DNA from: Rhytidiadelphus loreus
Taxonomy: Eukaryota; Streptophyta; Bryopsida; Hypnales; Hylocomiaceae
DNA: 64,000 bases
Direction: 5' to 3'
Assembly: GCA_947034895.1 (NCBI GenBank)
Contig: OX344764.1
Location: forward strand, 43,567,348-43,631,347
A program made the position numbers and the translations under genes. How positions within the stretch are numbered: position 1 is the stretch's first letter; each line of letters starts with the position of its first letter. The notes under the pieces are model-generated. The model was not told the DNA's origin. It saw only the letters and a list, made by a program, of their open reading frames with translations, and did no database searches. Below are positions 411 to 47,852 of the stretch, one piece after another.

Positions 411-476
411 TAGGTCGCCCACTCCACATTCTGAAATTGCGCCTCCAAAACCGCATGCAGACAACTTTGAATGAAG

Positions 477-654: not shown

Positions 655-659
655 AAGGG

Positions 660-1850: not shown

Positions 1851-2099
1851 TTGCTGTTGGAGAGAGCAAGTATCTTGTACAAAAAGGCCAACGGTCAATT
1901 CCGGACTTGGGGGGGCAAAACAGCGCACTCAAAGACCACGTAGGGTACTGATAAGCCCACCTTATGATATACGGAGTCCTCAACCTCATTTACAATCGCA
2001 CCAGGGTGACGTCCAGGCCTTCCTCCTTTGGGGCCACGAAGCCGAAGCCAGAGCACTCTGAGTCCCACCTTCGTCTGCCTATGATGAATGTCGAGGCCC

Positions 2100-3010
2100 C
2101 AAGAGAAGGGGTTGGTGGACAAGTATTGTGACACCATTGCCGGGATGGGGACTATTGTGAACAGGGTGCCTATCAGCGCACCTGTTGGCTGCTCAGAACA
2201 AGGACCTTCAAGTGGGAGTGGAACATTCATATCCAACAATGCGCAATCATCGAACACATGCTGTTATGCATTTTTCGAGGAATGAGCAGAGCTGGATATC
2301 ATTGCTCCACTCCCACTTGAGGGCTCGCATTGTGAGCAGCGAACAGGTGCGTCGATATGCCCCCTGTCCACAATAGTCCCCATCCCGACAATGGTAGAGC
2401 GGCTGCAGTCAAAGCCCACGGAGACGGAAGGATGTCGCGGAGGAGGACGACGCATGACGGTGGCTCTCATGGTGTACCTCGAATGATGACGGAGGGAGAG
2501 GTTCATGGCAACGCCTCCCGTGGTTGCCCTTGGAAGTCCCGTGAATGCAAGGCGCATCCGCTCCACACAAGAGACGAGTTCAACAACGATCCATCCAGCA
2601 CATTGACATCGTTCGAATTGGTCAGCACTATAATGGACGAATATTTTCTGGACCTTCTCAGTGTGCCGTGCAACGACCACCCAAACGATATGATCGGCAA
2701 ATAGATGCCTACTGGCGTTGGTGAAATGATGTTGCGAGGACCTTTCATCTGCGTGCTACGATGTACAGAAGCCTACTCTACGGGGTCGGGGACTCGTGTT
2801 AAAAAAGTGAGAATATTTGTATTAGTGTATCCAATGTGGGAATGAGTATATTGTTGACAAGAATGAACTGAAAATGTCTCTACAATTCTCTAATAAATGA
2901 GATGCATCTATAAATGTCATTTATGTTGTAGCAATTTTCAGCAATGTCAATGTGACCTTCGCAGACGAGTTGAGGATGCTGCCCACATTTCAGACCGCGC
3001 GGTCTGAACC
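2100..3010. repeat. Foldback repeat unit B, copy 1
   Basis: The unit opens with an inverted repeat of roughly 105 bp: about 2140-2243 pairs with about 2293-2393 around a 48-bp loop. A copy of the 150-bp module follows (2580-2740), then an AT-rich tail (2770-2960) and one 20-bp palindrome. The whole unit recurs in the same order at 3600-4526, so it was duplicated as a block. ORFs open on both strands across the arms because of the inverted symmetry. I do not regard them as genes. Confidence 0.65.
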
Positions 3011-3186
3011 GCAGGCGCCGACGTTCCAACCTCCGTCGCCTCGTGATGACGCAAGGCGCATCCAATTCCCGTGAGCGCAAGGAGCAATGCCTACCGAGTT
3101 CTCCGCGTGCGAGTTGATGATGCTGCCCACAGTTCAGACCGCGCGGTCTGAACTGCAGGCGCCGACGCTCCAACCATCGTCTCTTC

Positions 3187-3600
3187 GTGATGACTCTCCA
3201 GCTTGATCAACACCAGCAAGAGTCTATTCGCCGATCACATCATCGTGAGGTCCTCGCACGGCACTCCGAGGTTCACGGTCAAATGCTCGTCCACTGTAGT
3301 GCGGACCCATGCTGGTGTCATCCCTTTGCCGGATGGATCATTGCTGAACTCGCTCTTGTAATGAGAAGAGGCAAGGACATGGATACCCCATCCACGGTCA
3401 CGTCAAGAACGTCCTCTTCACATCCCGGAACCCACCGCCTAGCGGAGTACGTGTTGTGTTCACAAGACTTCCAGTGCACAACCAGGGGAGGCGTTGTCAT
3501 GAACGCCCTCCTCCAACCGTTCAAGGGCACCCCATCCGTGCGACCGTCGTCTCCCTCCGCCACATCCTCGCGTTCTCCGTGGGCTTCGACCGCAGCCGGT
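3187..3600. repeat. Inverted copy of the unit-B interior
   Basis: Read on the minus strand, this segment matches about 2400-2750, including the part reading as (g)gtcctcgcacggcactccgag here and the reverse complement of gtgccgtgcaacgacc there. It lies between the two direct copies of unit B and makes 2.1-4.2 kb a large imperfect palindrome. No protein family is recognisable. Confidence 0.6.
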
Positions 3601-4526
3601 CTACCATTGCCGGGATGGGGACTGCCGTGAAAGGTGCATATCAACGCACCTGTTGGCTACTGATAACAAATGCCTTCAAGTGAGATTGGAACACTCATAT
3701 CCAACAATGCGCAATCATCGAACACATGCTCCTGTGCATTTTCCGAGGAATGAGCAGAGTTGGATATCATTGCTCCACTCTCACTCGAGGGCATTGTGAG
3801 CAGCCAACAAGTGTGTTGATAGGCACCCTGTCCACGGCAATCCCCATCCCGGCAATGGTAGACCGGCTGCGGTCAAAGCCCACGGAGAACGCGAGGATGT
3901 GGCGGAGGGGGACGCATGACGGTGGCTCTCCTGGTGTACCTCCAACGATGGTTGCCCTTGGAAGTCCCGTGAACGCAAGGCGAATCCGCTCCACACAAGA
4001 GACGAGTTCAACAACGATCCATCCAGCTCGTTCGAATTGGTCAGCACTACAATGGACGAATATTTTCCGGACCTTCTCAAGGTGCCCTACAACGGCCACC
4101 CACACGATATGATCGGCAAATAGATGCCTACTGGTGTTGGTGAAATGATGTTACGACGAAGGGAACCACGCTCTATGGGATCGGGGACTCGTGTTAAAAA
4201 AATGCGGGTATTTGTATTAGTCTATCCAATGTGGGAAACAGTATATTGTTGACAAGAATGATGAACTGAAAATGTTTCTAAAATTTTGAAAATGTTTCTA
4301 AAATATCTCTAATGAGATGCATCTGTAAATGTCATTTATGTTGTATGGGAAAGTCATCCGTGGCTCACTATGAGTCCACGTTCAGCAATGTTAGTGTGGA
4401 GCTATTACTAAAAGCAATGAAGGGTAGACCGGACTTTGGACTTGGAACGCGACTGTGCAGCCTTCCGTCGTAACCTTCGCAGACGAGTTGAGGATGCTGC
4501 CCACGGTTCAAACCGCGCGGTCTGAA
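3600..4526. repeat. Foldback repeat unit B, copy 2
   Basis: This is a second direct copy of 2100-3010. It has the same inverted-repeat head (about 3604-3705 against about 3760-3865), the same 150-bp module (4005-4150), the same tail containing 'ggggactcgtgttaaaaaa', and a closing palindrome in the one-mismatch form at 4507-4526. The head loop and the tail differ from copy 1 by small indels. It is noncoding. Confidence 0.65.
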
Positions 4527-4562
4527 CTGCAGGCGCTGACACTCCAACCTTCGTCGCGTCGG

Positions 4563-5073
4563 CCACTTGGGGAGGTGACTGCCCGGAGGGATCCTACACA
4601 ACGAAGACAATGGTCACGACCGTGCAAACGTGATTGCGATTTTCTAGACGAGCTCCGGAAAGACAAAGTTCAGAGTGGGAAAAGAGGAGCAACGGAGTAT
4701 TCGATGGACAAACAATTTCACCCCATCCTAGACTACAGCCTAGTGTAGGGCGGGAAAAAATTGTTTCTCCATCAAACTCATCCGTCGTCCCCTGCGTATC
4801 TCAATTCATCCCAAAGGAGCAAACAACCCACCTTACCACATACGTACACCGTCGCACCACGCGCTCGTTAGCAGTGATGTCTTCTTATAGGGAAGTGGAG
4901 GTCACGTCCTCACCCGGCGCCTCGCAACTGTCGGAGGAGCCCACTCCTTCCGTCGTCTGGGTCCGCCGTCGCTTCATCTGTCGAGGGCCCCTTCGCGCAC
5001 TGTCTACGGAGTGCCCGCCGAAAACGCGAACGCGGCGCAGCCCCTGCACACCCATCCATTTCCGCTTGGTGCA
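4563..5073. other. Intergenic stretch without a supportable gene
   Basis: GC-balanced sequence between the repeat cluster and the FCP1-like ORF. An ORF on the plus strand (4634-5119) has biased composition and no recognisable motif, and it overlaps the 3' end of the minus-strand gene. I see no repeat or regulatory element I can defend here. Confidence 0.4.
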
Positions 5074-6144
5074 TCAACCCTTTTCTTTCTTTTGCACCAC
5101 GTGCTTCGCTCTTCGATAGACGAAATGATCGTTCCCGTCTCTACTGTACGTGCCGACGAACTCTAGATACTCCAGCAAGAGAGACCTGTCCTGCAACGTA
5201 GCTAACCCGCGCACATTGAGTCTGAAAAAGGGCGTCGTGAGGTTTCCGAAAAACAGATTCCGAGACACGTACTGCGACACGCTAAGACCGGACTCTAGCA
5301 GGCCCTTGAGATAGAGTCGCAACGTCCTGTCCAGGGTGGAATCGTGCAGGCTGCCAATGTACGACAACGGGAAGATGGCATTGTGCACGGGATTGAGGAT
5401 GCTGCTCTCGGGGGAGGAATCGATGAGCAGTGTGTTGCTGGAATTGGCCCTGAACGTGCCGGATTTGAACCTATCTCCATCCCAAACGGCTTTGTGCAGA
5501 ACCTTGAGCCTCAGCCTCCCCTCGGGATGGTCGGGGAACTGAACGTACGTGTCCTCGTCCACGTCGGTATCCCACTCGGGTTGGTAGGGGTGCGCCGGAC
5601 AAGGCAACGAGGGGAAGTGGGGGGGGGGCCTACACCTGCACAACCGCCACGATCGTCTCTCCACGATGGAGGTGCAGTCCTCGAGCGTGAGCACGCGCAT
5701 GGACGAGCGCTCCAAGCCGCGGAAGAGGAAATCGATCATGGGATTGGCCACGACGGCCGGCAGCCTCGTCCACATAGACAAGCGAAACCTCTTCGCCAGG
5801 CCTCTGAGGAATTCGCGCACTTCCGGACGACACGAGAGGGAGAACTCGCCGAAGACGTGGCGTTTCGTCGGATCGTAATCGTCCTCCGATGGTGCGCTTG
5901 CTGTGGGCGAGCGACCGGATCCGAGGGGCCCGACGTGCTCAACTTGGCATAGGACTCCTTCCAACTCCAAGACAACAAAATAACTGTACAAGGGCAAAGC
6001 AACGGGAGGCGGCGGCGCAGGCAACGGCAACGAGGCCTGCGTATGCGAAATCCCTTGTTCAAAGTAGTATTTGAAAATTAAATAAACGGGAGTCCACAAT
6101 TGAAAATGCGCCCCCCCCCCAACAGGTGTGGGAGGCTTGAACAC
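5074..6144 (-). CDS. FCP1/NLI-interacting-factor-like phosphatase-fold protein, probably inactive
   Basis: The ORF encodes 356 aa. The pattern of an FCP1-like (HAD superfamily) phosphatase domain is visible. A hydrophobic strand leads into ELEGVL (about residues 59-64), where active enzymes have DxDxT/V. SMWTRLPAVVANPMIDFLF matches the second conserved block. NTLLIDSSPESSILNPVHNAI (about 230-250) matches the LIDDSP...NP.NAI block. Both catalytic Asp are Glu, so phosphatase activity is doubtful. A proline/cysteine-rich stretch near residues 170-195, beginning at a GT-rich site around 5640, may be a retained in-frame intron. The true start is unclear because the first 50 residues look unconserved. 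It lies directly downstream of the ParB/methyltransferase-like pseudogene on the same strand and might be hitchhiking in the same element. Confidence 0.6.
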   Translation of the reverse strand: MFKPPTPVGGGAHFQLWTPVYLIFKYYFEQGISHTQASLPLPAPPPPVALPLYSYFVVLELEGVLCQVEHVGPLGSGRSPTASAPSEDDYDPTKRHVFGEFSLSCRPEVREFLRGLAKRFRLSMWTRLPAVVANPMIDFLFRGLERSSMRVLTLEDCTSIVERRSWRLCRCRPPPHFPSLPCPAHPYQPEWDTDVDEDTYVQFPDHPEGRLRLKVLHKAVWDGDRFKSGTFRANSSNTLLIDSSPESSILNPVHNAIFPLSYIGSLHDSTLDRTLRLYLKGLLESGLSVSQYVSRNLFFGNLTTPFFRLNVRGLATLQDRSLLLEYLEFVGTYSRDGNDHFVYRRAKHVVQKKEKG

Positions 6145-6225
6145 AGAGACGTGAACCCTTGTCCATTATCATCCTCTTTCTAAACGAGATCCACGTCCGA
6201 TCCCTACAAACTATCTAGGCAAGCG

Positions 6226-6540
6226 CTACGGAGGCAGTGAGCAGAGGGATGCAAGGAGATCGAGCCTCACCTTTGTTACATCCGGAGTGGTGGCTGCAAC
6301 GGGAGTGGTGGCCGCGACGGGAGTGGTGGCACGCCTCGTGGCGGCGCGAGTCTGGACACCCGCGACGATGGGAGACATGACCTGTGCAGTTTGCGGAGGG
6401 GGGAGTTCCACCTTAGAGACCGGAGGGGGGACTTCAGCAATGGCGGGAGCCTCCAGTGCCATCGGTGGCGGACAAGGAGGGCAACTCGGTCGATGGAGTA
6501 CCAGTGCAGACTCTTCGCCCAACCTAAGAGCATGGCCACC
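6226..6540 (-). CDS. Exon 4: C-terminal Ala/Thr/Pro-rich tail
   Basis: The acceptor TTCAG|GGTGGCC at 6540 keeps the frame of exon 3 exactly (phase 0), and 104 codons run to a stop at 6226-6228. The tail is rich in Pro, Ala and Thr, with a short repeat (TTPVAATTPVAATTP-like) encoded by a duplicated 15-bp unit near 6284-6330. No domain is recognised. The assignment rests on the splice sites and frame, not on homology. Confidence 0.45.
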   Translation of the reverse strand, partial: GGHALRLGEESALVLHRPSCPPCPPPMALEAPAIAEVPPPVSKVELPPPQTAQVMSPIVAGVQTRAATRRATTPVAATTPVAATTPDVTKVRLDLLASLCSLPP

Positions 6541-6941
6541 CTGAACCGCAAATGCCAATTGCCAAGAGCGTAACTACATTGCCCAAGAGGACTCAGGATA
6601 GAAAGCACAATGCACAACACTCTACATTGCACATCACTCAACGCCACGAATTCCCGAAAACACGAATTGCCAAAAAACGAAACCGATATATTACAAATAG
6701 AATACAATGTTTGTACAAACTTTACGAACAGTGTTTCACGAACAATCCGAAAATCACGTCTGTACAACTAAAATCGTCACAGGCCTCGCCAAAAGGGCTC
6801 CTACATCTATGGGCCTGTCGCTCCATGGACGGTGGACCCGTCGAGACGACCTTCGATCGGCCCGACGTAACACCCTCACATAGCTTCCACACCTGGAAGC
6901 GCAATTCAAAAGATGGGGAGCTATGTGGAGGGGTTACCCAC

Positions 6942-8795
6942 CGTGGAAGTCTGGACGTCGTCGGAGGGTGAGTCGATTGGCGCATGCTCCTCGTGCCTCG
7001 CAGGGGGCAGCGCCGGAGTGATTGGGGCCTGCAAGGGAGCATACTGCTGGGTCAAGTTAGTGAAGGAGACCTCCATATCTCCCAAGTCGACTTCCAAGTC
7101 GTAAGGGTCATCGTCGTGGATGCTCGGACGATGCACTGGCCCAGCGACATGCACAAACGGAAATTGACTGAGGGCTAGGTCATCGAATCTGTCTGGATCG
7201 TCAACGACACTCACCGAAATATTTGAAGCCTCTCCTGAACCCAGCTGTCGAAGTCCATACGCTGCGGTGGCCGTGGCGGCGGAAATCGAATTCGTGGTGG
7301 AGACTCCGGAGACGTTGTGGAGCTCGCTCACAGGAATGGGAGTCGCAGCCATCGGAGGGGCACTTGTCTGCGCGGCCTGCTTCGCCAGAATCTGCTCCTG
7401 CAGTTGCTTGAGCAACAAAGTGTTCGTCTCGCGATCCCTCCTGTACTCCATTTCCTTCTCGGCCTGCAGCCTTCGCTCCTCCGCGAGTTCCTTCTCCTTC
7501 TGCGCCTTCTTGGCCTTCCGCTTCACCTTCTTCTCCTCCTCCACCCGCTCCCTCTCCTCCCTCTCCCTCTTGAGCTCCCGATCCTTCTCCCTTAAATCCC
7601 TCACGAGGTTGTCGATGGCGTCATTGCGCTTGTCGAGCGCCCCCGAGTGCCTCTGCCTTTCCCGCTCGAGCATCATCTCCACGTATGCGAGGTTGATCCC
7701 TGCCTTGACGTCCATGTGGATGGGTTTGGCGTCCATGTCCACCGCGGCTGGAGTCCCTCCTGCCTCGGAGGAAGTCCCCGCGTCCGATGTTGCCGCTTCC
7801 ACCGCAGCCTTGGCCATCTTGCTGTACTCGTCTCTGCCGGTTGCTGCCAAGGCCAGTCAGTTGTCCAAGTCTCCGTCGTCCATCTCGTCCAGATCGATCG
7901 GGCTGCTCTTTGTATTCGTGGACTTGAGGGCGAGTTGCCGGTACACGGCGCGCGTATGGGCCATGAGCAGAAGCTCACCCACGCTGGCGGCAGGCAGTTC
8001 CGACTCCAGGATGTCGACGCTGACCTGCGCACCGATCAGCTCATCATGTTCTCATCCCCATTGAGATCGGATGGATCGCGGATGGACCTCAATTCCTGGA
8101 CAATCGCCTGCGACGTCTGAATCCTACATTCCACGGAGTCATCACTGGGATTCGCGGGAGAGGCGGCGAGGTCGGTCCTCACACTCGCCACCTCCGCTTG
8201 CCTGGCCGAAGACAGTAGTCTCTGCAATGCAGCCAAATCAGCCTACAGGTCCTGAATGAGCATTCTCGAGGGAGGGGGCGGAAGAGACTCCTCCGTAGGA
8301 GTGGACACCTCCACTGCAGCCGCCTACGGTCGGGGAGTGGGAACGCGGAAGACATGTGGCCGTGTTTCAGATCGCGCGGTCAGAACTGGAGCGCGGTGAT
8401 CCTCGGAAGATTGGGTGACGGGATCCGACTGCAGGGCCGAATCTTCAGGTCGGGGGGAAGCAGAGGGAGTGCGAGGAGATGGAGGTGGAGGTGGAGGGGA
8501 CAGTAGTCGGTTTGCGGAGGGAGAGGGGGGGTTGGAGGGAGAGAGAGGAGTGTGCGGGTGCATATCAGACCGCGCAGTCTGATTACTGCGCGGAGGCACA
8601 CTCGAGCTCCGCGGGGAGGCTGGCGTCGAATCAGACCGCGCGGTCTGATCCGTCTCCCTCTAGACAGAGTGGACGCCGGACACCGAAGCATCTCCGTGGT
8701 CTGAAACGTCGTCGCCTTCGCCGTCTCGCCCTCCCGCGCGGTCGACGTCTTCATCTTCATCCTTGTCCTCGTCGTCCTTGTCCTCTTCCTTGTCC

Positions 8796-8829
<34 letters not shown>

Positions 8830-9118
8830 TCTCCTTCTCCACTTCCGAGTTGGAGTCGCTTCCATCGCGGAGGTTGAGGGCGCCCTCTTGCGATTCCTCC
8901 TTGCCCTCTCTTTCATCATCCGAAGACTCGCTCTCCACGGGGTCGGGGTCCTGGAGCCTCCGTGTCTGAGACTTGGGGTCGTAGATGAAGTCGAGGGTGT
9001 GCGGCTGCGGCACCAAGATGTCGGGCCACATCTGTGTACCGATTCGAGCGTGCACGCTCTGGCGCAGGAGGCACTTATCGGTGGGGCGCACGAAGGAGAC
9101 GGAGCTCCGACACAACAT
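6942..9118 (-). CDS. Exon 3: end of methyltransferase-like domain, acidic tract, coiled coil (broken)
   Basis: The exon starts after CTGCAG|ATG. Its first residues (MLCRSSVSFVRPTDKCLL) continue the motif-I helix and strand as in ...GRRC.GIEIDPKYC of N6/N4 methyltransferases, with the usual acidic residue absent. A tract of about 60 Asp/Glu/Lys residues encoded near 8740-8840 follows, then a proline-rich part in which three palindromes are translated as QTARSD-type hexapeptides (8630, 8564, 8366). From about 7700 to 7440 there is a highly charged coiled coil of Glu/Arg/Lys heptads. TAG at 8660, 8324 and 8243, TGA at 7857, and a frameshift near 8036-8060 break the frame. The exon ends with ACG|GTGGGT at 6942. 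Confidence 0.55.
8366..8649. repeat. Three palindromic sites inside coding sequence
   Basis: Copies lie at 8366-8385 (degenerate, GATCGCGCGGTCAG core), 8564-8583 (GACCGCGCAGTC core) and 8630-8649 (perfect core with outer bases AT). Read on the minus strand in the frame of the broken gene they translate as LTARSE or QTARSD. They therefore act as short in-frame inserts in a proline-rich linker, where extra residues would be tolerated. Confidence 0.85.
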
Positions 9119-9225
9119 CTGCAGTGCCAAACAAGGCACACGGCATGAATTCTCCGAATGACGCATTCAAATGGTCAGATGAGCTCTACATTAGAAGCGA
9201 GATAGGGAAGGAGTGGAGAGCTTAC

Positions 9226-10602
9226 CGAGCACGCGGAGACGGGCTTGGATCCCGCAAAGACGAGCATGACCGTTCCCTGGTCCCTGCAGAACTTGTCGAT
9301 GAAGCGGAGGTACACTTCGTACCGCAGTTCGCGATTCGTCAAGATCCAAGGGTTATCGTGGCGACAGAGCTCCCGAGTCTTGTACCTGACGTCATCCGTC
9401 GCCAGAGGCTTGTCCTCGGCAGCCGAGAGTTGGGGAATCAGTTCCCCGACATTAACGAGTGGGGAATTTGTGAAATGCTTCGTGGTCCGCTGAATGTACA
9501 TGACCCTGTCCTTCCCCCTGGTGTAATAGTTCGGCTCGCCCTTGGAATATACGTACGTCGCGATGCGCCGAGTGTTATGCTCGGGGAAGAATTTCTCGAG
9601 CGCCTATTCCACTCCCACCACCCTCTCGGCGCCCATGATGAGCATCCACGTGTGGACCCCCTTGGCCATGGTATTTTGGGAGACCCGCGCGACTTGTTTG
9701 ATGATTTTCTCGTACGCGTAGTGAATCTCCATATTCCCGACGACCGGGAACAGGCGGAAATCCATAATCCCCACCTCGTAGAAGCGAATGCTGGCGGGTC
9801 CGACCACGTATTCCACCCATTCGCGCTTCTGCTTCACGTAGACAAAGGGATCGAACACCCTCCTGACGCGATCCCACCAGCAGACCGTGGCCCGCGCACA
9901 CCTCTTGACGGTGTTGCAGCGTTCGTTGTTGGTGAGCAGTCGCTGGATCATGGCGACGACGTCCAAGGGAGCAACCATCGTTTTCTTCCCCGAGCCACAT
10001 TGGTGCCTGAGCCACTTCTGCCCAATGTGCATGGCGGCCCACATGTTGTGCCCCTGAATGCACAGCAGCGCCTTGAACTCCCGCCAGGCTTTAGGGACGA
10101 CCTCCCCCTGGGAAATCACCTCCTTGGCCTTGTCGATGCCCAGGACGTCGGCCTTCTCCTTCATCTCGAAGATGAGCACGGCCTTGTGCTTCTTGTTGGT
10201 GCACCACTCGGCGAAGGGAATGGCTGCTGTCCAACTGGTCGGCCTCTTCAGGTAGACCTTGGGCGGCGTCTCCAGGATTCTGCTCGCGAGCTCGCCTACG
10301 GCAGCGTCATCCATCCCCAAAAGGTTCTTCATCTGGTTGTGATTGATCGCCGTGAACTTGTAGATCTTGGAGCCCCCCTTCCCGTCCGGAATTTGGTTGA
10401 ACGGGACGCCGGTGTCGATGTCGTGCAACGCCCTGGACTCGTGCTTCTGGAAGACCTCTTGCCAACTGGTCCAGGTCGCATTCGAGGCCATGACGATCTT
10501 CCGGTCGCCCATCTTGTCGAAGTCCCAGGTCCTCCCCCCCCCGTTTCGGTGCTTGGCGCTCCCCAGCGCCTCGAAGCTTTGGTGCGCCTTCTCCTTGAAA
10601 TC
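9226..10602 (-). CDS. Exon 2: methyltransferase-like domain, first part
   Basis: The exon codes for 459 codons from an acceptor reading CCAG|GATTTC to a donor reading TCG|GTAAGC. The strand EVGIMDFRLF (near 9760) sits where class-beta N6/N4 methyltransferases carry the DPPY/W motif; only the Asp is kept. GVHTWMLIMGAERV and VYSKGEPNYYTRGKDRVMYI follow in the order and spacing of the later strands of such enzymes. Near the exon end, VMLVFAGSKPVSAC occupies the place of the SAM-binding motif DxFxGSGTT. Loss of PPY/W and of the GSGTT residues suggests a non-catalytic derivative. An in-frame TAG at 9604-9606 interrupts it. Confidence 0.55.
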
Positions 10603-10637
10603 CTGGACACGCATCGGCGCGGTGAGTATGTGTCGTG

Positions 10638-10837
10638 ATCTGACCGCGCGGTCTGAACTGTCCCCGAACAATCCACGACACCAAGTGGTGTCGAGGTCGG
10701 AATATCGCGGGATCAGACTGCGCAGTCCGAAGTGACCATGAATCAGAAAGGTGACGAGCGTAACGAGGACAATGGGAGCCTACCGATATGGAATGGGACA
10801 GAATTGCATCACTGGGATTCAGACCGCGCGGTCTGAA
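10638..10837. repeat. Three palindromic sites in intron 1 of the ParB/methyltransferase-like gene
   Basis: The sites are at 10638-10657 (left arm ATCTGACC), 10712-10731 (GACTGCGCAGTC core) and 10818-10837 (perfect TTCAGACCGCGCGGTCTGAA). The intron is 258 bp (10603-10860), so palindromes make up almost a quarter of it. The sequence between them is not repeated. Confidence 0.88.
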
Positions 10838-10860
10838 ATGCGTAGAGAAGTCGTGCATAC

Positions 10861-12597: not shown

Positions 12598-12611
12598 AAG
12601 CAGTACTTCAA

Positions 12612-14125: not shown

Positions 14126-14169
14126 ACATGGCTGGGGCCACATACACTGCACGGTTATAGGTGCCTCTT

Positions 14170-15140: not shown

Positions 15141-15199
15141 ATGTTTAATGGTCAGTTTAGGGTTAAAACAGTGGGACTTAAAAGCGAGCTTAGAAGGGA

Positions 15200-18090
15200 C
15201 CAATGAAGGGCGGCTCTGCCTTTTTCATAGGCTTTCGTGGTCCGGAAAAAAAAAAGGGAGCTCTTTACAAAAAGAGAAATACATGTGCAACCTAACACAA
15301 GTAGTTTCGTATTTTTCTAAGCGTTTGTTAATTACTTATAAATTTGCAAAGATGGAAGATATAAGCAAGTACTCGTGGACATAGGTCTCCCAAAATACGT
15401 CCACTTGCAACTTGTACAGAAATGTGAGGAAATCAATGACAATGATTCACTCCTTCAATACAAAAATAATTTTTCCTCCAGGCGATGAATTCAATTGATA
15501 AAGCTCAGTGCTCCGTTGAAGAATCACCCCATCTCTATTTTGCACTTAAAAATAGGGGTGGTTTGAAGAAAAGGAGTGCTCTTAGAACACACATTGTCGA
15601 CCTTAAATCAACCCTAGTTTTTTCAATCAATTCACCCAAAAGCCCATTTTCCTAAATTCAAGGAAGTTGTACAATATTAAAGAAGCTCTAGGATATTGGA
15701 GGCACGTTTCTATGAATCCTCAATCCTAGAAAATAAAGATTTGGGATGGGCATGGAAAAAAATTAGGAACATGAAAATCATAATCAATCATTTCCAAAAT
15801 TGGATTTCGAATGCTAAAATGAACTTCCAAAATATTTGGATCATTTGCACTTGGCACTGATGGACAAACATGAAAGGGACTGGCAACATACTCAAAATAG
15901 GCCATATGTACATTAACTCTTATTCAAATCTCACAACTCACATGCACTCGTGCACTGCCTACAAATTAAATCAACGATTACAACATGTATATTATGCTTA
16001 GTTCTAGAAGGGGGAAGAATTTGCTTAATTGGAGAGGATTAGGAGTTCTACTTATTCTTAATCAATCATTTAAAATGTACTTCAGAAGATCGAGGTATTT
16101 ACCAACTCACACAGGAAATCTTCAACCAAAATACAAAAAATACAAAAGGCATAAGGGTTGCTTTGTAACCTCATAAATGTCCACAATAAACTTATGCATC
16201 GGTATTTATGTAGCATAAATTGTAAAGGGTCATTTAAGGCATTGATTTTTGAGAATTAAGGAAAGCAACTCAAACTCTAGCAAGGCTCTAGAAGCAAACA
16301 TGATTTAGAGGTACATTTCAATGTACCCGTTTTAGAAGGGGTTTTGTTTTGATGACCATTTTTTGTGAACTTCAAGAATTTGTAACTAATTTTACAAAGC
16401 TTGAAAAAATAGGAAGTGACTTCGGTTAGATGTCTATTCTACTTGTCTGTTGAGGGAAATTTACTACAAAATATTTAAAAATGTTTCACTTCCCAAATTT
16501 CAATTTTAGCCTTGAATTGGTTGATTTGTGAACCTCCTACCTCATTTATAGCAATTTGTACCGTTGGATGAGTTTCATATTTTGTTAGGTTGAAGAATCT
16601 CCCTTATGGAAACACCTTGTACGGTTTGATATAAGACTGCATCTTTGCAATGGACACAAAATTCAGTTTCTAGAAAAACTAGGCCCGCCCCTCAAATCAA
16701 CCACGGTCACTAAAGGGTTAACTTCCTTAGTGACCAAAACGTGGTCACTTTGATTTCTAAAGTACTTATTCAATTATTTGCAATATTCAAATGATATGGC
16801 ACTTCTAGGGATCCTTCGGAGAATCAAATTCATTTGGTCATCTTTCGGTACAATTGGATGTACATAACTAGCTTTTATGTAAAAAGAAAATCCCAAACTT
16901 TGAGTGTTTGGGTACTTACCCCGATAAAGCAACAGGTTGGGGGATTTGGTCAATGAAAGCATATATTACACCACTGACTTGTCCATCCGCCAACTAATGC
17001 TTGGCGCTAGCAGGGTTAGAGCTTCATTTCCTCCATGTATTGTATAATCCCATTTAATGGTCAAGCAACCACGTTATAATCACTTCAGGGTCTGCGATAA
17101 AAAGAACACAAAATGCGACCGTGAAGAATTGGTACTCAATCCTGTTCATAAATAGTTACATATTTTTCCACTCATAACACACCATTCTAAAACGAAAAAA
17201 AAAGAATTTAGAATTTTGCAACTATCATATTTCTTGTGAACTAAATCCAAAAATACTTGATATATAATTTGAAAACACAATACTGGGTACTTAGAAATAT
17301 AATGAACTTACTAGGATGGTTTATTAAATTTGGGATTTTGTTATCTTGATTTGTTTGTTTGAATTATTGTATTTCGTTGTTGCTATTCTAGAAGTGGAGG
17401 TATTTTAATCTAGATCAATGTACCAACTCTTCTCAATTTCCAACATCTGAAACTGTGTCCGAAATTGTACCTGGCCAAGTTGTTGTTCCTCCTACACTTC
17501 ACAACAATTATGTGAGTCTATTTGGGATATCAAAGAATGCAACATGGCTTGCTCTCTAAACTTGTCACCATTCTTTCATTTATGAAAATTGAAACTTACA
17601 CAATTCTATTAATGTACCATGATGCACAAATTAATTTCTTCTCTTCTTCGATTTTATTCACCATTGCATTCATATCTCCTATTTTTTTTAAATCAAGAGA
17701 TTTTCCAATACCCTATTTGATATATAATCCTATTTCAAGAATGAAATGTAGGCTGAAGTAGACATTTGAATCATATTTGATATTTGATATTAATTTCTTC
17801 ACTTAGTCTATCTTTTGAAGATGGAACAATAATTTCAAATCGTCACAGACTTAGACTCTTACATTAACAAATTCTACACACAATGAGATTCCATCATAGA
17901 AAAGAAAAAATTGCAATTTATATCACACCTTGACGATTTGAAAAATGGATCTATACTAACTAAGACCTTATAGGGGTTCATGACATTGTTAGTAGCTCAA
18001 ATATTATTGACACCTAGGAATTTTGAATATTGTGCTTTTATGTGAACGCTAAACAATTGATTTATAACCATGATATTTTAAATAGCACAT
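15200..18090. other. AT-rich noncoding DNA
   Basis: About 2.9 kb of AT-rich sequence with only short ORFs and no recognisable protein. The part from about 16340 to 16560 is a diverged relative of the repeat at 30690-30900: both contain 'cttcaa.aattt' and 'gatg.c.attc.a.ttgtct' with the same spacing. A small hairpin lies at about 16708-16740 (ggtcactaa...ttagtgacc). Otherwise I see nothing. Confidence 0.5.
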
Positions 18091-18600
18091 ACGACAATAA
18101 ACCAAAAATTTTCTTTCAAATTTTGAACAAGCTCAGTTATACGCTCATTAAGACAAACGTACAAATACCTTCCATCAGCCCTAAGAAGATCCATGCTACT
18201 ACAAAATAGTGACCAACAAAAATGAAATTTGCTTCACCTAAGCTATTTCTACATATAATGAATTATTTGTTATGAACAAATTTTTGTTTCGAAAATCTCA
18301 ACAAGTCTACAGACTTACAAATCAAGACGGAAGTATTGATACCCTTTCATTGACTTGGAGAAGATCCATGATGCTATAAGACAATGTTCAACGAAAATAA
18401 AATTCAATGTGATAAAGATCATTAGATATAAAAATAATTATTATCAACCATGTTTTTTTTCTAAAATCGAAACAAGTCTAACAACAATGCATTAAGAGAA
18501 AATTATTAGTACCCTCCCATCAACCATTCAATCCTAAGAGGACCCTTGTTGCTATAAGATCGTAATCAATCATTATTCTATATGAACTTATTTCCATCTC
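18090..18600. repeat. Diverged tandem repeat, period about 170 bp
   Basis: Two and a half units are visible, starting near 18170, 18346 and 18516. Each runs from 'ccttccatca...gatccatg.tgctataa' through 'aacaagtct' to 'tattgataccc', with many substitutions. It lies in AT-rich DNA and codes for nothing. Its age suggests a satellite remnant. Confidence 0.55.
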
Positions 18601-21030
18601 CATTCATCTTTCACATCAATTGAGTTCATGATTGTTATAATTTCTACTTCTAATATTTTAAGAAACATTGGAAATTTTGATTTTCATTTGAATTCTACAA
18701 AACCACGGTAATAGGTTCACGGCAATAGGTCTATAGTAATAGATACGATAATCCACTAAAAATAGAAGATTTTGATCAAAAATTTCAGATGGATTTTTAT
18801 TTTTAGCAATATTCTTAATTTTTTAGTACTTCTTTAAATTTTTGAACTTAACGCTCGCACAATCTTGCTCACCGCTTGAAATCTCATCATGCTCGTAGGC
18901 TCACAAACTAGCACCGCTGACTTTGGCAATTTTTTCAATTTCGACCGGGTAGTCTAAAATGTTCAAATGTCCTAGATTCGCACCTAGATTTCTTAGAACT
19001 TCATCATTTTTAAATGTCTGAAATCTACATGAGTCATAGATGGCACTTCTGTAGTTCAAAATACACCGCTTGAAATCTATAGAGATCCTAGATTTCTGAA
19101 ATCTATATAAATTCAAGATTGTTGAAATCTATACCTGTCCTAGATGTCACTTTTGTGGTTCGAACTAGGTACTTTGAAAATGGTACACAAAATATGGATA
19201 ATGTGTACAGCATTAAAAAAATGGTATGTGCAAAAATTCAGACCTAAATTTTTTATTCTCTAAGAGTTATGCACGGTCAAAGAGGGTTGAAAAATGCAAG
19301 AAAATAGACAGTTTGAAATTTAATTCTTAAGAAACAGTAAAAAAATTCAAAAAATTCAAAAAAAAATCTATTTTTTCTAACTTATAGATACTCCTTTTCA
19401 CCAATTTTCACTATTGGAAAAATAAAATTGTGTTCTCTACACTTGCGCAAAGGTAGTGCACTTTGAGCACATGTGGCAGATGGAAAATTATCTATTTTTA
19501 GAAAATCTTTGGTAAGGTTGTGTAACTCTAGTAGAAGTTCTAGTATACCAATTTTGAGCTTCAAATTCGTATTTTTGGGTGGAAAATAGTGCTAAAACCC
19601 TTCAAAATGGCCACGGTAGACATCCAATCGGGGGCAATTTAAAAATAGTAGAATAACTATAAAAAAAAGCCTTAAAAAGTACTCAACATCTGAAACTACC
19701 ACATGTACCTTCATTTCAAGTTTCATAGAAGATGGACACACGATGCAAAAGTTATGAGCAAAAAAACAGCTATCTAAGGTCCAGGGGACCAAAAAAACGT
19801 GAAGTGTTTCTTGCAATCACCCTATATCAAAAATCTTGTTCATTTTGCTTCTAATTATGTGAAAATGAAACAATTGATTCATAACCATGACATTTCGAAT
19901 AGCATATATACTACCCAAAAAAAAAAAAAAAAATAGGTACACCTAAGGTCAATCACTCAATGATCAAACTCAATTGTCATTTAAAAAATCATGGCTTTTT
20001 AAATGATTCTCACACATATGAACTTGATCATGTATCTCATAGCAAGATGTCTCATCCGATGCTTTTTAAATGCAAGTTTCTTGCTCACCTTTGTGCGTGA
20101 AGTTCAGAGCTTACTGTACCTTCTCTAAAGCTCACTCACAACTTGAGAAACTAAGTGTTATATTTCAGACTTATGAAGTTGAAGTTTTCCCGGAGTTGCA
20201 AGTGAACTCCAGCATTATCTAACTTGGATTATTTACAAATTCAATGTAACATGACTGTTCCAATACTACAAAATGATTGAGAGTTTCACTCTATGATGAG
20301 TTCCATGGAAACGAGATATAACAAAGAAGCATAATTATATGAAATATACAACATAAAATGTGTTGAATTTCCAATGAAAAAGTAGACATTTATTCTATGA
20401 GATATCCTAGTAAGTGGAAAATATAGATGTAGAGCATTTGCGGCCCGCCCAACTATGGCTTGAGAAGATCGGTGCTAATATGCTCACATTTGTTGAAGTT
20501 GCCATTTCTTTGTATTCGTATATAATTAGACCAATTCATTGAGAGGCTTGTTGAAACACACCATCTGTAAGTCCAATACTATTGTTGAAGAAAAGGTAGA
20601 ATTATTTGAAAATTCTAAAGCTTAAAGAAACTCAGGATTCAACGTTGCTGAATGAATGACTGTGTGTAGTTAGAGGCTTGTTTTTTTGGATCATTCGGAG
20701 GCAACCCATTCTAAGTATTGAAATATGAGAGCCACCCCCCCTAGGTAGTTGAAACCCCGGATGCAAATATAGACCACTATAACAAATCTTATATTCATAA
20801 AGTCCTAAAATAACTGACATTGGAAGGATCTGGATTGGAAGCCAGAAGTGAAAAACCAAGCAGTATAGATGATTGCCATGAGTAGGAATTCACAGCATAC
20901 ATCTTTCGTTCTAGGAAAACAAGAAACTATGAACGGAATATGAAGCAATATAACAAGGGCAATGTCTTTTTTCTATAAAACCTGTTCCCCATGCAATGCT
21001 ACTCAGCAAGAGCTGATTCCTCATAGATAC
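18600..21030. other. AT-rich noncoding DNA
   Basis: No ORF here has recognisable features. At 18939-18958 a sequence (TTTCGACCGGGTAGTCTAAA) looks like a decayed relative of the 20-bp palindrome, but it could be chance. Poly(A) occurs at 19916-19932. The rest is unremarkable. Confidence 0.45.
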
Positions 21031-21290
21031 AGTGAGCCCGCAAAAAAGTGCGATCAGCGGTTGCGACGTCGAGCCCCGCGAGGTTGAGGCGAGAGGTTTG
21101 CCAGATTCACTTGTGCTTGATTCAGCCGAGCCCGCACTTGCTCAAAAATATCTAGGTCGACATGAACGGCTTGCGACTCTTTGTGGAGATGTTCGGTTCC
21201 GTGCTCATCATCCTGAGAGAGTAGTGGTGGAAACACGTATTCCAATGAGTCAATATTGGTATCAGGTACTTGGCAATTGAACCTCGATGA
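21030..21290. other. GC-rich island, possible exon of an unknown gene
   Basis: A short GC-rich segment sits in AT-rich surroundings and is open on both strands: 21032-21280 plus, and 21054-21245 minus. The minus reading has an amphipathic stretch (HVDLDIFEQVRARLNQAQVN) that could be a coiled coil or a helix-turn-helix remnant. Without homology I cannot choose the strand, so treat it as a candidate exon only. Confidence 0.25.
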
Positions 21291-22270
21291 ATTTAGAACA
21301 TTCGTTTACCAACTTAACCGACATCATTGCATATCATGGATGACTTCTTCCCAAGTGGGTGAAGATTGTTGTGTCCCTTCCAAAGTTTGACATGGATTTG
21401 AGAGTGGAGTCCCTTCGATGACAAAGTAGCATTGGACATATTAATCTTTGTCTATCTCCTAGTAGATGCTATTCGTAGGTAGGGACGAGCATTTACTACT
21501 AACCTGAATGAGTTGTAGTAATAAGGAACCATTCTCGGAGGTTGATAGCTTGTTGGCATCGTCGAATTCTTCCATGAGAGCTCTGTATGTCACGCCGCAG
21601 CCCCCAGTTGAGCATGATTAGGACGAAAGAAATTCTAGAGTGAAGAACATGATTGCATGGTACAAACCCACTGTACTACTTGTTGCTCCAAATGGGGTCT
21701 GACATGATTGACATGGAGTGGTCACCTGAGGTTCTTGCAGTCCTTGCCATGGCGGATGTGGACATACTCCTCCATCATGACCCACACATCCCGAATCGCT
21801 GCATCAAATAGTGCACCCCATGCCACTTCCATTGTGTTTTGCAACGCACACATCACTTGACCTACAGAAAGGAAGCCATCAATGTTGTCCGAAGTGGTAT
21901 TCACGAGCGCGCCATTTAAAAAATAAATGATTTGAATTGAATGCAGCATACAAATGCACGAAGCCCAACATGGTCCATATAGCACTCACCCATCTTGCTG
22001 TCTTGGAACAACCCCTTGGATGTATCACAGTGAGAATAATGGGCAAAGCAGTACAGTTTGTATCCTTGCCAGAAATCTTGAGCTCTGTTTGGGAAATCAT
22101 TCCAATTGGAATTCGCAAAGATTGATGTCAGCAGTAATGGTCATTTCCAGAATACATGGGCAAGCATACGAGCATCAGATTCTACTTTAATTTCGTGAAA
22201 ATGGCGGGTTTTTGTGGACCATTTCCGAAGACTGCATTTCGAAGTGTCCGGCTTCCTGAGTGACTTGTAC
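21291..22270. other. Noncoding or degenerate sequence
   Basis: Short overlapping ORFs occur on the minus strand at 22118-21722 in two frames, with Cys/Trp/Met-rich translations. They may be the remains of a broken gene, but no family is recognisable. No repeat or regulatory site is evident. Confidence 0.3.
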
Positions 22271-22274
22271 CGAG

Positions 22275-22710
22275 TTCAAACCGCGCGGTTTGAACTGTGG
22301 AGGTTGCGTCATTGAAATTTTCTGATGTTGGACAGTTTTCTCAAATCTTCGACAGTTGGCGTGAAGCGACGAAGGGAAGGTCACTATCGTCATGGAATCC
22401 CGCAGTCTCGGACTCCAGACCGCGCGGTCTGAAGTCTGTGAGTCCCGTTCGTGTCAATTTTAGTTTTCGGACTTCTAGGAAGCATGTCATCTCGTTTTCC
22501 TAAATCTAGGACTATGGGAGAATCGTAAAAGTGACTGACAGGCCCTACAGCGTCTTGGATTTCCTAAGTCGTGGACTTCGACGAACTTCAGACCGCGCGG
22601 TCTGAAATGTGACAGTCCCGTCCGTGTGAATTGTAACTTTCTTCCATCCACTTGTGATCCAGTTTTCCGAAATCTAGGACAGTTGTGGATTTCGGACCGC
22701 GCGGTCTGAT
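22275..22710. repeat. Cluster of four palindromic sites
   Basis: The sites are at 22275-22294, 22414-22433, 22587-22606 and 22691-22710, spaced 139, 173 and 104 bp. The first reads TTCAAACCGCGCGGTTTGAA: both arms carry the matching change, so symmetry is kept. The second and fourth vary in the outer bases only. The flanks share 'gtgagtcccgttcgtgt' and 'gtgacagtcccgtccgtgt' after sites two and three, hinting at an old tandem unit. Confidence 0.88.
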
Positions 22711-24150
22711 CTGCAGAAACTTGTAGATTTGCGAAACCTGGTTGCTAAACCTCGCCAGTCGAATGGGATTATCATAATGGCCGTGATGGCTTTCAATGAA
22801 CACAATGCTCGGAAAGCAACAACTTGAAGTCAGTTCAACATACCCGAAGTTTTGATGGTCAAGTATAGTTTTGAGGTTGTGGGAGCACTTGCTGAAACGT
22901 GAGTCTGCCATTGAGCCTCGTCGAATGTGCACCTACCTCCAAATCCAAGAAACTTGTATGCTTTAGTTGTGCAATTTGGAGCCAAGGGAGGTACCTTTTG
23001 AATCCCACTTCGGAAATGACAAGCATTGCAAGTCAGTAGGGAGCGGAGCCGTGATCCATTGACATCTACAAAGTTCAAAGTTCAAAGTTCCACGAAATTG
23101 ACCATACAGTCACGTAGTTACTAAGCGGCGAGTGAAACATGAAGTGTATTATTTATTTCCTACAATAGGCTCCATGAAAGCGCGTACTAGGAGAAAGCAT
23201 TCTCTCTTTGCGCAGTCTGTGACTCCTATAATTCCTAAACCGAAAACATGTTCTCTATGACATCGTGCAGTGGATGGAAATAGAACTCTTGAGACTTGCA
23301 TGCATTTGCGTGTCATCTATACTGAAATCAATCCATTGACAATGTCCATTTCTTGAGTTGATCGGTTTTGACTGGCGCAATCCCAAGAAAGCAAGAATGG
23401 AAACAATTGAAATATGTTTTACCTTGTGAAGAGTGTCGCGAAACTGCCCTCCTCTTCCGCGTTTGGATGTTCGCCTTCTTTCCACCGTCCCCCGTGCTTG
23501 AGTTTGTGCCGCCTTCTTCCCACCCGGCCGTCCACCTCCCTTGTGTCGATGTTGCGAAATGCAGCGCAAGTTGAAATGAACGCCGCTACCTTGTTGCGCC
23601 CAACTCTTTTGGACGCCGCCTTGAAGTTCGCCCGAGAATCCCAGGTGAAGTATCGTCGGAGGTACAAGGCTTGCATCCGTTTGCAATGCGCCGCCACTTA
23701 CACGAGTTTCCCTTAAACTATATTAAATGGGAGAGTATCACACGAGTTTTCTGTAGATGACCCTACTGTACGTCCCATGATTCTCTTGTATTTGTTGCTT
23801 CCCTCGTATTTTGAAGCCCGAGCCATTGACAGAGCTTGATGGACAAATGAATGTGTTGTACTATGAGTAATTCTTGTTCCATCCCACTTTGACTAATTCC
23901 TGACTTTCAACGACCTTTTCTTTGAAATGAAATTGAATGCATTGCATTGCCTTTGGTTTCGTGTTTTTTCAGTAATTTACATGAAATCAAATTATTGTTC
24001 CCCTTGGAGCTTCCAAAGGTATCATTCCCTTTCTATTTGAGTTCGTAATTCTGATTCGTGATTATTCAATGACATGTAGAGTGCCTATTAGATTGAATTT
24101 CAGTACACCTTCAGCTTATTCGATTTCCGCGAGGTCCGTGACTTTCACAT
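22711..24150. other. Mixed sequence, one weak candidate exon
   Basis: No firm gene. A minus-strand ORF at 23686-23255 contains a basic Gly/Arg/Lys-rich segment, and the sequence CACAAG|GTAAAA near 23425 could be a splice donor, so it may be an exon with basic composition. Both strands are open here, which weakens the case. The rest is unremarkable AT-leaning DNA. Confidence 0.25.
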
Positions 24151-24341
24151 TTGAGACCACGGGGTCTGAAATGCAAACCTGTCGATATGAAAGGACACTC
24201 CGAGGTCAGGCAGAAGGCCTCGTTTGGAGGATGACAAATTTCTATGACTGGATTCCTGTGAAGACGTCCAGTCCCTGTCGTGCAGGAATTTTTCAAGTTC
24301 TGCCGTTTTCACAGTTCAGACCGCGCGGTCTGAACTGTGAA
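24151..24341. repeat. Two palindromic sites, one extended to 34 bp
   Basis: A decayed copy lies at 24151-24170 (TTGAGACCACGGGGTCTGAA). At 24315-24334 the perfect 20-mer is embedded in a perfect 34-bp palindrome spanning 24308-24341, whose outer arms are TTCACAG and CTGTGAA. This is the longest exact dyad of the family in the window. Confidence 0.9.
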
Positions 24342-25017
24342 TGTTCACTTTCTGATTTTGTGAGCATGTTTTTGGGAAATGACTTTCGTGACTGAGTTCT
24401 GAATGCAGTTGTTCCAATATCCCAGTGGACATTGTTCGAACCAGGTCCCCGTTGGGGTTCACATAGTTCAAATCCAATTTAGAACAAGTCTATGCATGGT
24501 CGGGTTCAATTCTCCCTTTAAATGTGATCCTTCTTTAATTTTTCTTGCCCGATCCAGTTTTGAATGCCTCGGAAATGAAGCAAATCGGAATAGGATTATT
24601 CTATTTTATCCCCCTCTTCCCTCCATTCGACAATTTAGAACTAATACTCCCAAACTGAAATTGAAATTAGAGTATAAAGTGTGGTCACAATATATATGAT
24701 GTATATGTCAATGTTTGCGCACATGTTTATTTTTTCATAATGTGAACTTTGTTCTTCTTGTGTTATTTGATTTGCTTATCACCAAGTGACATCTTTTCTT
24801 ATCATTTGGAAATTCTGAATTCTACGTCATCACCTACCTGCAGCATACTTAGGTGCAAAAAGATACACAACGAACGGGCTTCCAAGTGGACCCCACGGGC
24901 TTTTATGTGCTGGCCGCCGGGCGCATTAAATGAAGGAAGTCTAGCACTCTAGGTCGCCGGCTTCGTCTGCCTCATGTCTCCCTCCCGTCGCCGTTCTCCC
25001 GCGGGCTCCGTCGCTGC

Positions 25018-25146
25018 ATGTCTTCCTCTCGTCGTCGTTCTCGCGTGAGCTCCGTAGACACGCGTTTGGGGCGAATTTTGGATCGCTGTGCTGCCGCTCG
25101 TCGGCGCCTTGAGTCGGAAGATCACGTCGGACCGCCTCCCTTTCAG
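25018..25146 (+). CDS. Candidate 5' exon, basic N-terminus
   Basis: A GC-rich island from about 24890 carries an ATG at 25018 followed by exactly 43 codons (MSSSRRRSRVSSVDTRLGRI...), closed by a good donor, CAG|GTACGA, at 25146. The phase is 0, compatible with the downstream exons of the 26.8-29.9 kb gene. If joined, the palindrome cluster at 25897-26687 would lie in the intron. An upstream ATG at 24974 is soon closed by a stop. There is no homology, and the next acceptor is not certain. Confidence 0.3.
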
Positions 25147-25896
25147 GTACGAAGACGTCTCCGTGTTTGATTTCGCTTCCTAGTCGGAGAATGTAGGGTT
25201 CGTTCCTTTGCGTAGTGTGACTTGCGTGGTCGGAATGGAAGGCTCGGCCTCATCGAATCCTACTGATTTCGGATGAGATGGATGCAAAGGTGTTTTCCGA
25301 ATTCAAATCAAGTACTTGCAATTTCATGGATGTTTGATCTGCTGTCATTGCCAAATGAATGCTCGATTTCATTCCATTCAATGTTATATTGTCCATTGCA
25401 AATGTAAGTCATTCTCCGTGTGCATGCATTTAATTTGTGGCTTACCTCATTCAGTTTCGGGTGTATCCCGATTTCAAGAATTGTGATCGGTTGTTCAATT
25501 ATGCTCACTGGGTCCATTTTGCGAGAATGGCGGCAAGCTTGTCATTTTTCCGGAATGTAGTGTTATTTTCTCGCGAATTCAGTGCCATTGTAATGGAATG
25601 CGGTGCCATTACATTGGAATACCGGCATTGCAACTAGGAATACCATTCTGCATTTCTAGAATATCAATTGTGTTTGGCTGTCATTGTTATATTATCCACT
25701 CTTCCCCTGTGGAATTGCCTTTCGATTGGTTGGCATTCTGGACAACAGTTCATCGTCATTTGTGTTACCTCCCTGACTGCACATTAGTTACCTAGATGCT
25801 CCGTTTTATTAGGTACGTCTGTACACCGACTTATTCACGTTGCACGGTGTGAACACATTGAGGTTGGAAGTCACCTTACGAGTGAGGCCTTTTTGT

Positions 25897-26687
25897 TTTT
25901 GACCGCGCGGTCTGAAACGTTTTGAGACGGAGGATTTGATATCCTGAAACTGCACCCCCTACTCATTCCAGACCGCGCGGTCTGAAATGTTTTTCGACCG
26001 TATTCAAAGATCCGACAATGGAGAGTCCATTTTGGAGATCCATCGGATTTCACATTTCAGACCGCGCGGTCTGAAATGTTTGATACCTCACCTCGTGTTC
26101 CAACATCGGATTTTCATTTATGTCCAAGCGATGACAACTGTTTCCTGCTCGTACAGCATTTGTCGAAATTCTGGATTCTCATTCCAGACCGTGCGCTCTG
26201 AAATGCTCCATGTTACCTCTACTTGGAAGGACTGGATCCGAGTAGTTCGGACAACAGTTCAGACCGCGCGGTCTAAAATGTTCCGAGCAAGTTATTGCTC
26301 CGAGAGGTTCTGCTCATCGGATTCCGAAACATGCATGGTCTTATTTCTATGAATCCACAGACCTCTCAAATTAGACCGCGCGGTCTAAACGAACGACATG
26401 TTCACTGCCGAAGATATCGTCCTATGCAAGTATGGAGGCTGGCAGTGAGTTCGACGCCGTCGAATTCTGACTAGTACTGGTTGCCGTAGGTTCATCTCCT
26501 ACTCTAGTGGTCTTCCCGTGGCTCCTCACGAACAGACCGCGCGGTCTAATCTTGGAGAGCATTTGGCAATTATGAATGACATTTTCAAGACAAAGGTTGC
26601 AGTCCGTCGGATGAGTATCATGTCATGCATGCACACGGGATGTCTGAATGATTTGCATATCCTGTCTTCCAGACCGCGCGGTCGGAT
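25897..26687. repeat. Cluster of eight palindromic sites just upstream of the DUF7869-like gene
   Basis: The 20-bp sites start at 25897, 25967, 26056, 26183, 26258, 26370, 26531 and 26668. 26056 is perfect, extended to 26 bp (ATTTCAG...CTGAAAT with outer C and G). 26183 has GTGCGC in place of GCGCGG. 26370 and 26531 use the TCTAA arm. The last copy lies about 115 bp before the ATG at 26801. Spacers are unrelated to one another. The position mirrors the array upstream of the gene at 12597. Confidence 0.88.
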
Positions 26688-26800
26688 CGAATTTGTCGGG
26701 GAAGCATTTACCACTTCCTGCGACAACTTACGGAGCTCCCGTGCGGGCCCTCCGTGGAGTGGGAGATTTCGTTTCCGGAAACAACTTCCGAGGGGCCAGT

Positions 26801-35356: not shown

Positions 35357-35393
<37 letters not shown>

Positions 35394-47804: not shown

Positions 47805-47852
<48 letters not shown>

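Follow-up and report, generated by a model that had tools for sequence, protein, structure and literature searches.

To our knowledge, element-encoded and sequence-specific anti-silencing is known only from the VANDAL transposons of Arabidopsis. The consulted sections of two publications describe VANDAL21/VANC21 as an anti-silencing system of this plant (PMC5735166, PMC10398659), and the sections of the former state that VANC21 binds the motif YAGTATTAY in the non-coding regions of VANDAL21, i.e. within introns and in regions preceding genes, and that these motifs evolve through tandem repeats (PMC5735166). Here, a window from the moss Rhytidiadelphus loreus is analysed, this term denoting the whole stretch of 64,000 nucleotides (GenBank assembly GCA_947034895.1, contig OX344764.1, positions 43,567,348 to 43,631,347 of the forward strand). 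The window contains 36 copies of a CpG-rich 20-bp palindrome, all of them within a giant DNA transposon that carries a gene for a DUF7869 protein. Judged from sequence comparisons, the palindromes are putative cis-acting binding sites of a dimeric regulator of this transposon, a reading to which we give somewhat better than even credence.

Short repeated motifs are also known from other systems. En/Spm, a CACTA element, has TnpA binding repeats in which a short CpG-bearing motif in subterminal position is linked to methylation-dependent control. The terminal inverted repeats (TIRs) of CACTA elements begin with CACTA and the elements create duplications of 2-3 bp, and in CACTA or Ac elements the subterminal repeats serve end assembly. 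Bacterial ParB/parS systems have multiple short palindromes near the ParB gene. VANDAL21 is much smaller than the giant element described here. Giant eukaryotic transposons have been reviewed (PMC6431247), and those in the consulted part of the review share with the present element a size of tens of kilobases and the possession of several genes; the term "moss" was absent from the review.

As far as the consulted sections on VANDAL21/VANC21 go, the likeness lies in a DNA transposon with several genes whose non-coding parts, both in introns and upstream of genes, contain many copies of a short motif, in motif arrays that shift by tandem repetition between related elements, and in the context of silencing. 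The VANC21 motif is 9 bp long, non-palindromic and in one orientation, whereas the motif found here is a 20-bp CpG-rich palindrome. The VANC domains DUF1985 and DUF287 gave no Pfam match in nine open reading frames (ORFs) of the window or in further scans, which spliced or fast-changing genes may escape. By analogy, the site resembles a VANC target in its placement and turnover, but no VANC protein was found and it is not classed as one. With En/Spm the element shares a repeated short motif with CpG and, putatively, a control linked to methylation, but membership of the CACTA elements was rejected: the TIR starts with ATGGGG, the target duplication is 4 bp long, and no sites lie near the ends, the distance to the nearest one in the window copy being 4,900 bp on the left side and 3,924 bp on the right. 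The palindromes near a second gene of the element are reminiscent of the ParB/parS systems, the product of this gene having a ParB-like stretch by eye (INGQHTW..AAK). A weak match to PHROG 723 (E 0.17) was obtained for its relative P0125 only, and the product of the second gene matched no ParB family in Pfam or NCBIfam.

Materials and methods

The motif used for scanning was the 20-bp palindrome TTCAGACCGCGCGGTCTGAA with the 12-bp core GACCGCGCGGTC, and cut-offs of at most 3 or at most 5 mismatches were applied. The scanned genome comprised 407 Mb in 489 contigs. For the analysis of arm symmetry the right arms were redealt among the sites as null model. When symmetry was analysed in the window copy, related sites were thinned to 27, 21 or, most strictly, 11 representatives. 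Copies of the element other than that in the window are designated by letters.

Results

The palindrome is far more frequent than expected in the window and in the genome

At up to 3 mismatches the window contained 32 sites, all within 2989-26687, against an expectation of 0.00 derived from 100 dinucleotide shuffles. At up to 5 mismatches 36 sites were found, the first base being 2989 and the last 26687, whereas 20 composition shuffles of this region yielded 0 or 1 site. Nine of the sites match TTCAGACCGCGCGGTCTGAA exactly, and no palindrome was detected beyond 26687 at the wider cut-off. The original prediction, made from the letters of the window, of about 37 palindromes at 2.9-26.7 kb with none thereafter was hence reproduced almost to the number. 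Genome-wide counting, which had been suggested along with it, placed the motif far above chance, with 3737 sites at up to 3 mismatches versus 0 for the pattern read backwards, and the exact core occurred 2039 times versus 10 times for the backwards control. Among 50 distinct core sites listed from these 2039 (contig C1, first 17.2 Mb), 48 were clustered and 2 isolated. In the consulted parts of the literature searched, the core occurred once, in a Caulobacter paper.

All sites of the window are located in one giant transposon

The 36 sites are housed by a single DNA transposon whose left end falls outside the window (Table 1), a circumstance that the original prediction had not recognized. Alignments of the window with other motif-bearing places were long and mostly 96-98% identical; they start 1.9 kb before the window in copies A-C and stop at approximately 30.61 kb of the window in copies A-D. 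The left end of copy D lies outside the compared row; the evidence for the left end comes from copies A-C. A 31-bp inverted repeat, ATGGGGAATTTCGTTAAAATGGCGGTATTCC, is present at the element ends; copies A-D share this TIR on the right, and copies A-C share it on the left. Self-comparison of the window copy gave 95% identity over 41 bp, flank included. Target duplications of 4 bp were found on both sides of copy A (GTAT), copy B (ATTT) and copy C (CCCG), in which the element measures 33.4-35.4 kb compared with 32,523 bp in the window. Because it is bounded by TIRs and 4-bp target duplications, the element was classified as a giant DNA transposon.

Table 1. Features of the giant DUF7869 transposon (positions refer to the window unless a locus is named).
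Feature	Position	Strand	Basis or remark
Giant DNA transposon	-1911 (L025:4089) to 30611, 32,523 bp; in-window part 1..30611	.	Alignment ends, TIRs, 4-bp target duplications
Left TIR, 31 bp	L025:4089-4119		Matches right TIR
Right TIR, 31 bp, reads ATGGGGAATTTCG... inward, one difference in window copy	30581..30611	-	Self-comparison
Target-site duplication TTAA	Right 30612..30615; left just before L025:4089	.	
3 palindromes: 2989, 3133, 4507	2989..4526	.	Related 92-bp units, left non-coding region
3 palindromes: 8366, 8564, 8630	8366..8649	.	Past the 3' side of the second gene's acidic ORF
3 palindromes: 10638, 10712, 10818	10638..10837	.	Within inferred intron of the second gene
13 palindromes: 12612, 12793, 12886, 13014, 13162, 13404, 13585, 13642, 13733, 13824, 13914, 14015, 14106	12612..14125	.	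Directly upstream of the second gene
6 palindromes: 22275, 22414, 22587, 22691, 24151, 24315	22275..24334	.	Stretch without coding signal
8 palindromes: 25897, 25967, 26056, 26183, 26258, 26370, 26531, 26668	25897..26687	.	Directly upstream of the DUF7869 gene
Element-borne ORF for a NIF-type phosphatase	5074..6144	-	PF03031, E 4.3e-10; third-position excess
Acidic ORF, perhaps the final exon of the second gene (uncertain)	8660..9166	-	ORF list; third-position excess across copies
Exon 2 of the second gene (P0124 and on)	9217..10605	-	52% identical to P0134 over 473 amino acids
Second gene, inferred intron, GAG-GTATGC ... GTCCAG-GAT, three palindromes	10606..10860	-	Sequence; proteins of relatives end or begin near both sides
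Second gene, exon 1, protein P0121	10861..12597	-	52-53% identical to P0125
DUF7869 upstream exon	26952..27926, aligned part 26976-27890	+	34% identical to Ceratodon DUF7869 protein P0031; third-position excess
DUF7869 main exon	28033..29910	+	PF25273; 77-78% identical to P0001

When 400 bp from the right end were used as query, 40 of 40 scored places (of 728 candidates) matched, i.e. the window and 39 others at 97-99%. One palindrome together with its flanks was present in 82 places and another in 79, each at up to 3 mismatches, from which we estimate that about 80 element copies keep any given site, a number that would account for the majority of the 3737 sites. The claim that the flanks are unrelated therefore applies between most sites of one element, but not between copies of the element, since the two sites tested recur with their flanks at about 80 places. 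Likewise, the possibility that everything belongs to one repeat family with conserved flanks was borne out in its first half, as nearly all copies examined belong to one transposon lineage, but not in its second, the flanks within an element being mostly unrelated. In copy F (L024:3808-4053) a 246-bp insert resembling a miniature inverted-repeat transposable element (MITE) was found, which has the TIR type of the giant element and a CAAT duplication and is a non-autonomous relative.

The sites have an almost invariant core, symmetric arms and a non-coding placement

In the majority state over five aligned copies, positions 5-16 of the motif carry the same base in 34-36 of the 36 sites, while positions 1, 3 and 4 and their partners are the most variable. 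The outer five arm pairs of these sites were symmetric in 148 of 180 cases versus 138.2 +/- 3.2 after redealing (P 0.0024), in agreement with the earlier remark that variants of the palindrome often keep their symmetry. In the window copy the outer four pairs of the motif gave P values of 0.016, 0.023 and 0.34 with 27, 21 and 11 representatives, respectively. Excess symmetry also reached flank positions 1-8 with 27 (P 0.0000) and 21 representatives (P 0.0042), and was not significant there with the strictest 11 (P 0.20). Long perfect arms are present at site 24315 (17 bp) and at site 26056 (14 bp). At site 22275-22294 both arms are changed alike in the window copy (CAAACC/GGTTTG), and the four other copies keep the unchanged arms.

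The defined exons, 7,553 bp in total, are overlapped by none of the 36 sites (circular-shift P 0.019). Upstream of two genes lie 21 of them, 13 within 1.6 kb of the second gene, in a group that is partly a 91-bp tandem array, and 8 within 1.1 kb of the DUF7869 gene. The location near genes and far from the ends favours gene control over end recognition.

Sites are shared among copies and decay by methylation-type changes

In 34 of 37 site columns the site is present in all five aligned copies. Of the three exceptions, two are gaps that span the full 24 columns displayed and are thus longer than a site, and the third is a site decayed past the cut-off. A presence/absence difference of the size of the palindrome unit was not seen among the five copies, and the notion of a MITE or mobile palindromic unit was consequently not supported, contrary to one half of the original prediction. 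Instead, the sites multiply via tandem duplication of larger units, 91 bp in the window element and 82 bp in a diverged relative.

All six cytosines on one strand of the site stand in CG (positions 8, 10 and 12) or CHG context (3, 7 and 16), and by symmetry those on the other strand do likewise. For one site 82 copies were compared, a set from which copies with more than 3 mismatches escape; 46 were unchanged, and 35 of the 36 changes within the 20 bp were C>T or G>A, 18 in CG and 17 in CHG. Due to this type of decay, old copies look methylated at the site.

A diverged relative keeps the palindrome before the same gene

Four loci were taken from the genome-wide scan, three of them in copies of the window element and one, L001, outside these; at the latter nine palindromes lie in an array of approximately 82-bp units. 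Arrays of this period occur as inverted pairs in at least 12 places, 9.7-21.5 kb apart (14.0-16.5 kb in ten of the 12). The one such place that was read, C3:7778001-7806000 (L034, L030, L031, L035), is related to the window element but rearranged; it starts with a related TIR and has 37 sites at up to 5 mismatches in 20 kb. Its DUF7869 gene shows 50-68% amino-acid and, where alignable, about 77% DNA identity to that of the window element. It has two inverted arms that are 96-97% identical to each other; on each of them a palindrome array lies upstream of a fragment of the second gene (161 residues on both arms, 66% identical). Around the same palindrome, the window element has 91-bp units, whereas the relative has units of approximately 82 bp and of other sequence; a single site, window 4507, was aligned with its flanks across both elements. 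The palindrome is thus found before the same gene while the repeat that carries it differs, which we take as the strongest evidence of function. Directly left of the TIR of the relative, C3:7778064-7778917 (L034) is 91.5% identical to window 14970-15807, so that a copy of the window element was apparently the insertion target of the relative.

Genes of the element

A profile search identified the protein encoded in the right part of the element as DUF7869 (PF25273, E 1.8e-45), and its sequence suggests that it is probably the transposase of the element, perhaps of the DDE type. The start of the upstream exon at 26952 is provisional. In the window's frame, the main exon has 2 stops in copy A, 1 in copy C and none in copies B and D. 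Relatives carrying species names include Ceratodon and Physcomitrium proteins (among 120 of 213 matches listed), and the profile matched at least 150 genomic places, i.e. 150 of 150 scored, of 1805 candidates. Taken together with the plant-type telomere repeat of the window (see below), these named relatives point to a moss as the probable host. The word DUF7869 was absent from the literature searched.

For the second gene no curated family was found above the cut-off in searches of Pfam and NCBIfam; relatives of its protein are 32-53% identical. In the window copy, exon 2 has an in-frame stop at 9604-9606. Third-position changes across the five copies were in excess in exon 1 of the second gene, the DUF7869 exons, the acidic ORF and the NIF ORF. 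In the frame of exon 2 no such excess was found, with 20, 18 and 19 variable columns at positions 1, 2 and 3, and at 14.2-25.9 kb frames of at least 90 residues gave no coding signal among the five copies. P0012, a relative of the DUF7869 protein, and P0137, a relative of the second gene's protein, come from contigs of equal size (338,987), and we infer that they sit on one contig.

Other repeats in the window

Another repeat family consists of 21-bp tandem repeats with inverted halves (CTGGACGGTCAGTCCGTCCAC) at 35411-35523 and 47709-47802, which are adjoined by poly-A runs at 35358-35389 and 47805-47849. Within 31001-64000 there are 9 occurrences of another palindrome, TCGGCGCCGA. Tandem arrays are located at 40543-41589 (period 106 bp, about 10 copies), 51018-51416 (35/74 bp) and 61608-61932 (67/134 bp), and the plant-type telomere repeat CTAAACC was found at 57928.

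Discussion

The original prediction had left the choice between a mobile palindromic unit and a binding site for a dimeric protein. The latter is the better-supported half, although as a putative function, given the almost invariant symmetric core, the symmetric arms, the non-coding placement and the retention in the relative. A protein binding in dimeric form, most likely made by the element itself, would occupy the palindromes and control the genes of the element. Its binding would probably compete with or reverse host DNA methylation, as VANC does on the VANDAL elements of Arabidopsis; this is proposed on the grounds that the site has no cytosine outside CG or CHG context and that its decay is of the methylation type. 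The first candidate for the binder would be the product of the second gene, a guess from position alone, because it is encoded behind the densest array and has three sites in its intron.

Several observations weigh against binding by a regulator. Overall the motif is kept no better than its surroundings: across the five copies, minority bases amount to 1.6% in the motif versus 1.4% around it and CpG transitions to 2.7% versus 3.0%, and only CAG/CTG transitions are rarer in the motif (12/530 versus 39/930). At the site compared in 82 copies, the motif changes even faster than the 15-bp flank (0.022 versus 0.015 per base per copy). Selection on the sites would accordingly concern the ancestral active lineage only, without constraint visible in the present copies. 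The P value for exon avoidance is modest and depends on the chosen set of exons, and some sites overlap open frames that were not counted as exons, for example 8630 in 8380-9141 (-) as well as 26531 and 26668 in 26518-27372 (+). No gene start was found beside the six sites at 22.3-24.3 kb and the three at 3-4.5 kb. Moreover, a binding consensus by itself does not account for the arm symmetry at flank positions 1-8.

It is this last point that speaks for the palindromes being structural or recombination products, whose symmetry would be maintained by hairpin-templated repair or gene conversion without any bound protein. Symmetry that extends into flank positions 1-8 (P below 0.005 for the sets of 27 and 21 representatives) and perfect arms of up to 17 bp are better explained in this way than by a binding consensus. 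However, the flank symmetry loses significance with the strictest set of representatives, and it would not be explained why one 12-bp core recurs at 36 places whose flanks are mostly unrelated or why sites lie upstream of genes, so that we regard such an origin as quite unlikely. Host transcription-factor or silencing-factor sites collected by the element would fit the placement upstream of genes and the methylation-type decay; the clustering of 48 of the 50 core sites listed (of 2039), by which host genes seem not to carry the motif commonly, leaves this explanation unlikely, with some chance of being right.

If the palindromes were recognition sites of the DUF7869 transposase, bound in order to assemble the element ends, a short repeated motif would indeed be expected inside a DNA transposon whose probable transposase may be of the DDE type. 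Yet in the window copy all 36 sites are internal, the outer 4.9 kb and 3.9 kb being empty, and none was seen by eye in the 246-bp TIR-bearing insert of copy F (L024), which makes this role improbable. The least credible origin, to which we assign hardly any weight, is that of passive hitch-hikers, i.e. a small palindromic repeat with numerous insertions in the element's ancestor that was carried along thereafter. The unrelated flanks of most sites within one element would be accounted for, but 34 of the 37 site columns are filled in all five copies without site-sized presence/absence, and the sites were multiplied by tandem units of 82 to 91 bp.

Going beyond a dimeric regulator as such, by analogy the regulator may possibly be an anti-silencing factor like VANC of Arabidopsis. 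A bolder proposal, which we put forward tentatively and consider doubtful at present, is that a lineage of giant transposons of the moss type has an anti-silencing of its own, independent of VANC, in which a dimer of the second gene's product would read the palindrome, whose cytosines are all CG or CHG targets of maintenance methylation, and, through occupation of dozens of sites, would shield the element from methylation or clear it, the sites acting as a methylation-sensing switch. Regardless of anti-silencing, a large, multi-copy family of DUF7869 transposons is documented here. If the proposal were true, it would be a second case of anti-silencing, from plants remote from Arabidopsis and with a different protein and a different kind of site; it would suggest that transposons invented anti-silencing more than once, and it would offer a new handle for locus-specific demethylation.

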